Shown: positions 54,842 through 58,069, counted from the first letter of the stretch. The stretch is DNA of 64,000 bases from Akkermansia muciniphila (GCA_947624785.1 CANQLV010000013.1:17791-81790); one strand, 5' to 3'. Translations and numbers: made by a program. Notes: a model not told the origin generated them from the letters alone.

Positions 54842-57800
54842 CTAGGCGGATATACGCAGATTTCTCCTCACCTCATGATTCCCGCTTTCCGTTTTCATCA
54901 TCCGGAACATTTCCTCAATCCAGGATTGAACCAATGCCGGCTTTTCCTTGACCAGATGTACGATTTTTCCGTGAACAACAGTATAATGTTCCTTGCTGCC
55001 AGCCGGGTGGGCATATGTTTTCAGAAGGTAAGGAGCCAATCTGTTCGTTGCTTCTTCATCAAGAGTCCAATGTTGATTGGTACTGTAAAAGGCAAACAAA
55101 CAAAGTCCGGAGGATTCCGGCTGCCGGAGCAGTTGGAGAGGATCTCCATAACGCTCCAAAAGATTGTTGAACGGTCTTTTTTCCCTTATCTGTTCATGAG
55201 ATGGGGAAACTTTTATTCCCCGGTATACAGGAGACTTCCCACTAAAATCCACCGTCCATGGGCACCCCCACACTCCAATATGAAGATGGGGAAAGTCCTT
55301 TTTCAATCGCTGCGCCAGAATAAGGGCAGCAAACGCATCCTTGCAAATACCCATCAGCAGGACGGATTGAAGCCGGGGCATTTTTCGTACCCCTTTTTCA
55401 ATATCACGATACATGCGTTCCAGCAGCAGCAATCCCTCCCATTGATGATACCTCATGCCGATAAAAGGACGGCTGGAATGCCGGAACACGGAGTTATTAC
55501 CGTCATACGGGTTGATGAGCAATTCCACCGCGTATTTGTTCACTTCATTGATAGTGGAAGAATAATGATAGTCAAGGTACCGATATTTTCCCTCTTCCAT
55601 CTTCAGAAACTCTTCAGTTCCCCAGTTATCCCATTTAAGAACGAGCTTGCTTTCATCATGTTGAAGTATGGTTGCGTGGTCATTGCGGTGAAGCCTTCGC
55701 CCCCGTTTTTCAGTCATCTGAAATTGGTCCGTCCACTGAGGATGGCTGATGAGAATGGTGTCCACGGGAACCATGTCCGGTGAGGAGCCATTATCCTGGG
55801 AAGAAACCGGAAGCGCCGGGGTGGAGTAATGAAATTCACCGGCGGCATCTTCCAGAATGGGAATGACTCTTCCGCTGTCAATAAGGGACTGCATGTAGGC
55901 ATTTTCCGTTGGCGCATGATGCTTTGAAGAACCCGCGGCCCTCAGGTTCATATCCGTATCTCCCAGATAGTAAAGCTGGGCTTCAGGGAATAAATAGTCC
56001 GCCAGACAAAGCGCTTTGCTCAACGTGGTAAAATTGCCCGTGCTGCGGTGAACTTCTCCCGGCATGAATTTCCAGTTTTCCAGCCTTTCCCTGCAGGCAA
56101 ATTCATTGGAATAGCCCAATTCTTCATTGTTGAAGTAAATTTCCGGGACTCCGCGTAAAATTTCCATATGCCTTTCCTTAGGAGAAAAAGCCAGGTATCC
56201 GGGGAAGCATGAAACAAGAACAATATCCGTCCTTTTTCCCGCCAGGCCGGAATTCAAATTATCCATTTTGCTGATTCTCATTACTTTATCGCAAGAGTCG
56301 ACAAACGAGGAATAGTTGCGTTTCAAATCACGTTTATTTGAGACGATGCAAATACGTTTTTTATGCCCTTCTGAAGCCAGAAAACATTGACAGTCTTTAA
56401 ATTCACCCAACCGTGACAAGACTTTCCATTCCTCTTCCGTATCAATTTGCAGACAGCAGGGAAAATCGTTGGGATAGGGGCACGAGCCGTCATCAAACAT
56501 CGTACCTGATTCCAGAAATTTTTTCCGGGTAACAACATTAATATTTCCGTCAAAAAAATAGAAAAATTTCTTGGCGTCCTGTTCCCGATGCGCCAGATGA
56601 AAATGTCCCTCCAGATGACCAATCATTTTGGTTTTGCGGGCTGTGTAGGCGGATTGAATGATCCCTTTTTCCATGTCTTCCGCCATTTGGCGCAACAGTC
56701 CCCGACGGCGGAAGGGAGAAGTCGGCTGAAGTACGGCGAACATGTCACAGGAGAAACGGGCCAATACCTGGCGTACGCAATTTTCCATTCGACGGTCGTC
56801 CACCGTCTCCCGGAAGCACTGGATGCCTTCCCGACGGCAGCGTTCCATCACTTCTTCACTGTCCGTACTGACAACCGGAACAAATCCTTCCTGGAGGGCA
56901 TAGGAAACGGAATATAGGAACAGGGGCCTTCCATTCAACAGGCGCCTGTTTTTATGCGGACAGCGCTCCGAATGTTTTTTAGCCGGAATAATGGCCAGCT
57001 TGCGGATGAATTGGGAAGCCGTGTCCTTCCCTTCCGGACAAAACACGGGGAACGGAGTTTCCTTTATCGATTGGGGCAGCAGAAGTTCCGCCTTTCCCGT
57101 CCATTGTTTTCCGTCATCATGACGGGACATGACGGGATAGCCGTGATGCAGACGGCAAGCCGCCGTACGCGGCCTGCCAGTCCGGCATATATTCCCGCCG
57201 CATGAAATCATGGAAAAGAATTCTGTCAAACGGTTCACATATTCTCCGATGTCCGGCTGGCCCGGGACAAAAAGGGGACCGTCCATATAACTGAGGTAAA
57301 GGTCTTCATCCTGATCAAGACGAATCACATATTCAGCCACGGCCTCCGGGGTGGAAAAATCCGCGGCATCGACGAACCGGGATGGATTGGCCTCCATTCC
57401 TGCATCGGGGGCTCCCCAATAAATGGGAAGGGAAAGAGCGGCAAGAGAATCAAATAGTTTTTCAGTTACGTAACCGGCAGCCGGATAGTTTTCAAAGGCA
57501 ATCGTGAATTTGCAGGAAGAGCAGAAAGCTATTTTATCCCGAACGCAGGAGCCCATGTTGTTCATGACCATCCCGCCGCAATCTACATGCTTGTACCGGG
57601 AAAGCAGGCGCAGGAAATGAATTCTTTCCGGAGCATTCCCATTGGAATATATAAAGTTGCAAAACCGGGTATGCCTGGACAGGAGGGACTTTCTATCTTT
57701 GGAGTATTGCTCTACTTTTCCCGTTCTCCTGACAGGGCCATTGTTCATCCAGCAGGGCATCCTCAAATGGCATTCGGGATAGGGAATATCCTCCCTCATG

Positions 57801-58069
57801 AATGAAATGGCATAATCGCACTCATCCCAACGCGGTTTGACGGATTCCCCTGTATAAAAAACTCGAATCCCTTTAAAGTTCTGATGCTTGTCTCCAAAAA
57901 CGGAGTAGATTAAAAAATCCGCCTGATCCTGGTCATCCACAACGGACATGCCCAGTCTTTCCGTCAAAACCGCGGACAGAATATTATCATGCGGATCGAA
58001 CCCCGGCCAGAAGTCCGCAAAAGCGACACGTTTGGCGTGCCGGGAATTTATACCTGCTGTCTCAACCAT
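54842..58069 (-). CDS. multidomain protein: GT10 fucosyltransferase + CMP-sialate-synthetase-like + GT29-like + W-module + C-terminal unknown domain
   Basis: GT10 'CKFTIAFENYPAAGYVTEKLFDSLAALSLPIYWGAPDAG'; NeuA-like 'LAIIPAKKHSERCPHKNRRLLNGRPLFLYSV..VVSTDSEEVMERC..VLQPTSPFRR'; GT29-like 'ICIVSNKRDLKRNYSSFVDSCDKVMRISKMDNLNSGLAGKRTDIVLVS'. Confidence 0.8.
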   Translation of the reverse strand: MVETAGINSRHAKRVAFADFWPGFDPHDNILSAVLTERLGMSVVDDQDQADFLIYSVFGDKHQNFKGIRVFYTGESVKPRWDECDYAISFMREDIPYPECHLRMPCWMNNGPVRRTGKVEQYSKDRKSLLSRHTRFCNFIYSNGNAPERIHFLRLLSRYKHVDCGGMVMNNMGSCVRDKIAFCSSCKFTIAFENYPAAGYVTEKLFDSLAALSLPIYWGAPDAGMEANPSRFVDAADFSTPEAVAEYVIRLDQDEDLYLSYMDGPLFVPGQPDIGEYVNRLTEFFSMISCGGNICRTGRPRTAACRLHHGYPVMSRHDDGKQWTGKAELLLPQSIKETPFPVFCPEGKDTASQFIRKLAIIPAKKHSERCPHKNRRLLNGRPLFLYSVSYALQEGFVPVVSTDSEEVMERCRREGIQCFRETVDDRRMENCVRQVLARFSCDMFAVLQPTSPFRRRGLLRQMAEDMEKGIIQSAYTARKTKMIGHLEGHFHLAHREQDAKKFFYFFDGNINVVTRKKFLESGTMFDDGSCPYPNDFPCCLQIDTEEEWKVLSRLGEFKDCQCFLASEGHKKRICIVSNKRDLKRNYSSFVDSCDKVMRISKMDNLNSGLAGKRTDIVLVSCFPGYLAFSPKERHMEILRGVPEIYFNNEELGYSNEFACRERLENWKFMPGEVHRSTGNFTTLSKALCLADYLFPEAQLYYLGDTDMNLRAAGSSKHHAPTENAYMQSLIDSGRVIPILEDAAGEFHYSTPALPVSSQDNGSSPDMVPVDTILISHPQWTDQFQMTEKRGRRLHRNDHATILQHDESKLVLKWDNWGTEEFLKMEEGKYRYLDYHYSSTINEVNKYAVELLINPYDGNNSVFRHSSRPFIGMRYHQWEGLLLLERMYRDIEKGVRKMPRLQSVLLMGICKDAFAALILAQRLKKDFPHLHIGVWGCPWTVDFSGKSPVYRGIKVSPSHEQIREKRPFNNLLERYGDPLQLLRQPESSGLCLFAFYSTNQHWTLDEEATNRLAPYLLKTYAHPAGSKEHYTVVHGKIVHLVKEKPALVQSWIEEMFRMMKTESGNHEVRRNLRISA

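Follow-up and report, generated by a model that had tools for sequence, protein, structure and literature searches.

Fusion of a GT10 fucosyltransferase domain with cytidylyltransferase and GT29-like domains in an Akkermansia glycosyltransferase operon

Described relatives and the setting of the locus

A natural chain of a CMP-sugar synthetase and a glycosyltransferase is represented by Cj1143 of Campylobacter jejuni, a CgtA-NeuA fusion in a ganglioside-mimic locus, where the synthetase is joined to a GalNAc-transferase and the bacterium also encodes NeuB. The glycosyltransferase families GT6, GT11, GT10, and GT31 build ABO/H/Lewis-type glycans, GT11 being the H-type fucosyltransferase family and GT6 the blood-group A/B-type family. 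Sialyltransferases of family GT29 are known from animals and from bacteria (PMC5811610), and a plant member of this family, RCKT1, probably transfers Kdo (PMC12168206). Although Akkermansia muciniphila removes sialic acid from mucin, it shows no growth on this sugar (PMC10067855). Its LOS contains three Kdo residues and fucose, and sialic acid is not mentioned there (PMC13135019). The strains concerned in these two studies may lack the locus described below.

Here, an open reading frame (ORF) of an Akkermansia genome (3.08 Mb, G000) is analyzed within a window, i.e., the whole stretch of 64,000 nucleotides of contig C13 to which all positions refer. The ORF (54842-58069, minus strand, ATG start) encodes 1075 amino acids. 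The first-pass annotation had proposed a single protein with three linked enzyme domains, namely a GT10 fucosyltransferase, a CMP-sialate-synthetase-like domain and a GT29-like domain. The ORF is real and the order of the domains is the one claimed, but a beta module and an alpha/beta-hydrolase-like C-terminus had been overlooked (Table 1). Like Cj1143, the protein is a natural chain of a CMP-Neu5Ac synthetase(-like) domain and a glycosyltransferase, and in A. glycaniphila a CgtA-like part is also fused; unlike Cj1143, its partner is a GT29-like domain plus GT10, without NeuB. Known kinds of enzyme are combined here in a new way, and no description of this protein was found in the open-access literature that was searched for sialyltransferases of Akkermansia and for natural fusions of a CMP-synthetase with a sialyltransferase.

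The gene belongs to a minus-strand operon of six genes that runs from 63740 down to 51060 in the order GT4; GT31 + methyltransferase-like + GT11; GT2-like + GT6; the 1075-aa gene; CgtA-like; and GT10 + GT2-like. The ORF and the upstream gene (58048-60408) share 22 bases, an overlap of the sort seen with translational coupling in operons; the GT2-like part of the upstream product was called by similarity to neighbours only. The operon is complete within the window because the same block in the close relative G017 has unrelated genes at both borders, including those upstream of the GT4 gene. Related loci are present in A. muciniphila CSUN-56, A. glycaniphila Pyt, and Akkermansia metagenome-assembled genomes (MAGs). 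A role of the operon in building ABO/H/Lewis-type glycans is read from knowledge of the families, and the linkages are putative. In full-length comparisons, dN/dS values of 0.05-0.22 indicated strong purifying selection on the 1075-aa gene.

Table 1. Domains of the 1075-aa protein and its operon partners (positions in the window)
Feature	Position	Strand	Basis
GT10 alpha-1,3/4-fucosyltransferase domain, residues ~14-300, with FENYPAAGYVTEK motif	57170..58030	-	PF18025, PF00852, PDB match
NeuA/PseF-type cytidylyltransferase (CMP-ulosonate synthetase-like), residues 356-562	56384..57004	-	PF02348, phmmer, tree
GT29-like sialyltransferase-fold domain, residues 570-748; putative catalytic His717 in HX4E (H717-E722)	55826..56362	-	AF2 model, Foldseek/VIA, hhalign
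KW/WD beta module, residues ~765-840	55550..55777	-	Sequence common to neighbours; mostly beta strands in model
Alpha/beta-hydrolase-like C-terminal domain, residues 841-1075	54845..55549	-	AF2, VIA, Foldseek
Operon gene 1, GT4 glycosyltransferase	62694..63740	-	PF00534 3.3e-9
Operon partner GT31 + KW + methyltransferase-like + GT11, 756 aa	60421..62691	-	PF01762 1.2e-11, PF08241 2e-4, PF01531 1.6e-15
Operon partner GT2-like + KW + GT6, 786 aa	58048..60408	-	PF03414 3.2e-34
Operon partner CgtA-like (GalNAc-transferase-like) GT, 268 aa	54002..54808	-	PF06306 7.5e-4, 19.5 bits, below 21-bit cut-off
Operon partner GT10 + GT2-like + two KW modules + alpha/beta-hydrolase-like C-terminus, 969 aa	51060..53969	-	PF00852 1.7e-20, PF18025 2.5e-8

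Domains of the 1075-aa protein

The N-terminal domain matched FucT_N (PF18025, 2.1e-21, 76.6 bits against a cut-off of 27.2) and Glyco_transf_10 (PF00852, 8.2e-20, 71.6 bits against 23.9), contained the FENxxxxxYVTEK motif of GT10, and matched the Helicobacter pylori fucosyltransferase in the PDB with an E-value of 4e-28, in agreement with its earlier assignment to GT10. Unlike the H. pylori enzyme, it is one of five domains on a single chain.

The middle domain matched CTP_transf_3 (PF02348) at 1.1e-10, with 42.2 bits against a cut-off of 22.6, which bears out the CMP-sialate-synthetase-like call at the family level. The sequence IPAKKHSERCPHKN is found at residues 361-374 and 'LQPTSPF' at 447. 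The best curated subfamily was PseF, with 50 bits over the full length, well under the cut-off of 205.7; no equivalog-level NeuA/PseF match was obtained for this domain, and no nonulosonate equivalog besides PseF was reported. When the cytidylyltransferases of related genomes were searched with the domain by phmmer, six NeuB-linked enzymes and one PseF-like enzyme (L059) were retrieved and no KdsB was among the matches. In the phylogenetic tree, the domain, its Akkermansia relatives and a prophage copy formed one supported clade outside a separate KdsB clade that includes the KdsB of the same genome; the position of the former clade among the NeuB-linked enzymes was weakly supported. KdsB models scored 16-29 bits, with cut-offs of 155-281. 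A CMP-Kdo enzyme had been named in the first-pass annotation as one outcome that would speak against it, and a KdsB identity was rejected by similarity in all three comparisons (phmmer, tree, and model scores), which support a predicted CMP-ulosonate-synthetase-type domain.

Alignment showed that the cytidylyltransferase motifs S367, K373-N374, Q448, R495-x-QD498, and D543 are retained. Substitutions are found at K364, where R is usual, at E368, where NeuA usually has K, and at Q541, which takes the place of the first Asp of DID. As a result, the DID metal-binding pair reads LQID, with one Asp left, and the R/K pair of the P-loop is changed (IPAK, SER). These DID and P-loop substitutions, together with equivalog scores far below the cut-offs, were counted against the reading preferred below. 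The domain thus resembles the NeuA/PseF CMP-nonulosonate synthetases in its PF02348 family, its full-length PseF alignment and its LQPTSP, RxQD, and IDTEEE motifs, but differs from them as a separate divergent clade with the IPAK, SER, and LQID substitutions and as part of a transferase chain with no NeuB partner in the genome.

The third domain, which the first-pass annotation had regarded as its weakest link, is below the detection of family searches. The 'CIVSNKRDL...' region (571-748) had no Pfam match even at an E-value of 10, the domain was not retrieved by a PF00777 (GT29) search of the whole genome and the phylum, and a direct PDB profile search returned chance matches only. It is not a chance product, since 10 of 142 relatives conserve it and none of the other four domains is as strongly constrained (dN/dS 0.05-0.07 in full-length comparisons). 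An AlphaFold (AF2) model built from five Akkermansia sequences had a pLDDT of 76 and a pTM of 0.77. Against the PDB, VIA placed ST3Gal1 on top (Z 12.0, 153 residues aligned, rmsd 3.8), with ST6GalNAc2 at 11.6, ST6Gal1 at 10.1, ST8Sia3 at 9.7, and the GT42 enzyme CstII under the GT29 scores at 9.0. GT29 enzymes also led in Foldseek (probability 1.00), the top matches of Foldseek and VIA being ST6GalNAc2 and ST3Gal1. The fold is also common to SteA and to HPPK/pterin and thiamin pyrophosphokinases (VIA Z 8-11), which was counted against the preferred reading.

Profile comparisons led to the same family. The family profile of the third domain reached a bridge protein from another genus of the family (L083) at 1.1e-6, and this protein matches PF00777 at 0.0043. 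When aligned by hhalign with bacterial GT29 sequences (two PF00777-positive proteins and L083), the third domain gave a probability of 96.4% and an E-value of 1.1e-9 from the motif-L region through HX4E. His717 is invariant in all eight diverse members, the prophage protein included, and the Glu of HX4E (sialylmotif VS) is replaced by Asp in one of them; the alignment of all eight was too divergent for the contig scan, for which a closer alignment was used. As to the sialylmotif-L-like pattern of the first-pass annotation, hhalign aligned the motif-L region with bacterial GT29. Motif S is only partly kept (TT for ST, no following G) and motif III was not seen. Because of its predicted fold, the profile alignment, the invariant His717 and the constraint, the placement of the third domain in the GT29/GT42 clan, closest to GT29, is well supported despite the lack of a Pfam match, and the fold comparison that had been proposed as a check returned GT29/GT42 folds. 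With GT29 enzymes, both the animal ST3Gal, ST6Gal, and ST8Sia and the bacterial ones, the domain shares the fold, a motif-L-like pattern and the HX4E motif VS with its invariant His; it differs in being shorter (~175 aa), in falling below PF00777 detection with no recognisable motif III and a partly changed motif S, and in being fused to its own CMP-sugar synthetase-like domain. Likeness to GT42 (Campylobacter CstI/CstII) may extend to the fold (VIA Z about 9) and the catalytic-His region, but the structural scores are lower than those for GT29.

The two remaining parts of the chain recur in the operon. The KW/WD beta module belongs to no family known to us and is repeated in the neighbouring multi-domain GT proteins (51060-62691), twice in one of them. 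The C-terminal domain is ~30% identical to the C-terminus of the 51060-53969 product, and its AF2 model (residues 841-1075) was of moderate confidence (pLDDT 63, pTM 0.65). VIA gave Z scores of about 10 to esterases, the families being those of the VIA list only, and the Foldseek matches were weak (E 1e-3). The canonical GxSxG elbow is absent from this domain and GxCxD is found instead, which reads GICKD in the window protein and its relatives versus GRVEE in the paralogue. From its sequence and model, this alpha/beta-hydrolase-like domain is probably degenerate.

Recurrence of the cytidylyltransferase and GT29-like pair

The cytidylyltransferase and GT29-like domains are fused in eight Akkermansia genomes. 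Five of these fusions include GT10 and two follow its in-frame loss (G075, L018:7445-9736; G056, L019:5793-8084), nearly all of GT10 being deleted so that ~40 N-terminal residues are joined directly to the cytidylyltransferase. The remaining one, in A. glycaniphila (L023), carries a homologue of the 268-aa CgtA-like glycosyltransferase fused to the CMP-synthetase-GT29 part. A ninth case, in a roe deer MAG (G009, L016/L024:4313-5803), has HX4D, not HX4E, and is broken by one in-frame TGA; it is either a pseudogene or an assembly error. In two other genomes of the phylum the pair is encoded by adjacent genes, and the transferase there is a PF00777-positive GT29. A GT29-like domain copy that is 98% identical was found on L012 (JAJBVF010000404.1), which is filed as 'Clostridiales bacterium' and is probably a mis-binned Akkermansia contig.

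The pair is also present in phages. In a prophage of G017 (L026:8510-10333, C1), an ORF of GT2-like appearance, a cytidylyltransferase of 201 aa and a GT29-like gene of 170 aa are bordered by a large tail-region ORF on one side and by a tape-measure-like ORF on the other. The prophage region encodes a terminase, a Mu-type portal, a DnaB helicase and a major head protein. On the 125-kb viral contig IMGVR_UViG_3300033145_000274 (L096:7917-10630), a radical-SAM/SPASM gene and a cytidylyltransferase lie between two GT29-like genes within a glycan-type gene cluster. The prophage GT29-like protein had no match in PHROGs, no relatives were found when viral_contigs was scanned with the prophage proteins and two G014 proteins, and none were found among INPHARED phages. 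That the pair turns up in such different contexts would be difficult to account for if neither partner made the donor for the other, and donor activation and transfer are probably coupled.

Some further loci are recorded here. Two short ORFs with sialylmotif-like HX4E patterns lie on a 3.4-kb contig of G014 (L025:130-645 and 2673-3257, C113), and a 573-aa ORF lies between these two GT29-like ORFs; PHROGs and Pfam gave no support for the latter as a phage head protein. NeuA/PseF-like cytidylyltransferases adjoin weakly MptE-like proteins in G009 (L059:514-2193) and G014 (L070:38-2154); these neighbours carry 'VGAGPTL' or 'VCGAGPTL', and both genomes are without NeuB.

Donor supply, alternative readings and significance

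The first-pass annotation had seen no NeuB gene in the window, and the absence holds for whole genomes: NeuB (PF03102) is absent from G000 and the nine other carriers (10/10) and was found in 22 other relatives that are not carriers. The search for sialidases that it had proposed gave BNR_2 sialidase-family genes in all ten carriers. NanE is absent from all ten and TRAP DctM from G000, and both absences were counted against the preferred reading. A transporter of the SSS family (G000:C12:498-4308, L102) adjoins pyrG (CTP synthase) near kdsB, and its nearest solved structure is 5nv9 (Proteus SiaT, E 1.3e-39). Some of what we take to be its sugar-site positions differ, leaving the site only partly kept, which was likewise counted against that reading. 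The lack of growth of A. muciniphila on sialic acid, and the absence of any mention of this sugar for its published LOS, also weigh against it. Since no carrier genome has NeuB, the acid would not be made de novo; with sialidase-family genes in all carriers, the candidate donors are sialic acid obtained by scavenging, Kdo and other ulosonates, and the most likely is sialic acid that the bacterium frees from mucin with its own sialidases.

Kdo is the main rival donor, because the plant GT29 RCKT1 probably transfers Kdo (PMC12168206) and the LOS of A. muciniphila contains Kdo, three residues of it (PMC13135019). With CMP-Kdo or another ulosonate as donor, the GT29-like domain would be a Kdo transferase and the middle domain a second CMP-Kdo synthetase. 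Kdo is moreover the sole ulosonic acid that the genome visibly makes, with KdsB present and NeuB absent; that dedicated KdsB, however, already serves the genome, and the middle domain is closest to NeuB-linked synthetases and shares the RxQD motif with them. This alternative is unlikely, though it deserves weight. The structural similarity of the third domain to an archaeal HPPK (8sd5, VIA Z 10.3) and to thiamin pyrophosphokinases (8-9), along with the two Akkermansia cytidylyltransferases that adjoin weakly MptE-like proteins, could instead mark it as an MptE-like/DUF115 protein, alike in fold class but not a CMP-sugar transferase. As GT29 enzymes score higher over more aligned residues, the domain has HX4E and a sialylmotif-L pattern, and the bridge proteins match PF00777, we regard this as very improbable.

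It is somewhat less improbable, but still quite unlikely, that GT10 alone is active and that the cytidylyltransferase and/or GT29-like domains are dead, serving as scaffold or for acceptor binding. The substitutions at usually conserved cytidylyltransferase positions, the degenerate hydrolase-like neighbour on the same chain and the missing Pfam call for the third domain fit such a loss of function; the lowest dN/dS lying in the third domain, the invariance of His717, the retention of both other domains by two lineages without GT10, and the way the pair recurs across unrelated genomes and in phages do not.

The reading that we prefer, and hold to be rather more probable than its negation, is a chained glycosyltransferase for fucosylation, activation of an ulosonate onto CMP and GT29-like transfer in the making of a host-like surface oligosaccharide. 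The GT10 domain would add fucose, the NeuA-type domain would load the ulosonic acid onto CMP, and the adjoining GT29-like domain would move the acid from CMP to the glycan with His717 of HX4E acting as base; for the beta module and the degenerate hydrolase-like domain, a part in acceptor binding or positioning is probable. Computation gave the domains, fold, conserved His, purifying selection, recurring pairing and NeuB absence, whereas the activity, donor, acceptor and linkage, as well as the roles of the last two domains, are inferred. The protein probably decorates the bacterial surface with a host-like acidic sugar cap, and the 'sialyl-Lewis machine' of the first-pass annotation is a reasonable hypothesis. 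A broader proposal is more doubtful, and we offer it tentatively: a mucin-degrading commensal that lacks NeuB may recycle sialic acid from mucin to build its own surface glycan of Lewis/ABO-like type, with fucosylation, activation and sialylation all performed by one chain. Phages may carry the same activation-transfer pair among or close to their structural genes, possibly to glycosylate virions or the surface of the host.

If the protein is active on sialic acid, it would give a beneficial, mucus-dwelling gut bacterium, which removes this sugar from mucus and is reportedly unable to grow on it, a way to put the sugar to use as a self-like cap. This would bear on immune recognition (Siglecs, selectins), on ABO/Lewis mimicry and on how strains of Akkermansia differ. 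As a predicted natural one-protein enzyme for donor activation and transfer, the chain would also be attractive for synthesizing glycans. The repeated occurrence of the pair in phages suggests that transferases of the GT29 type move together with phages.
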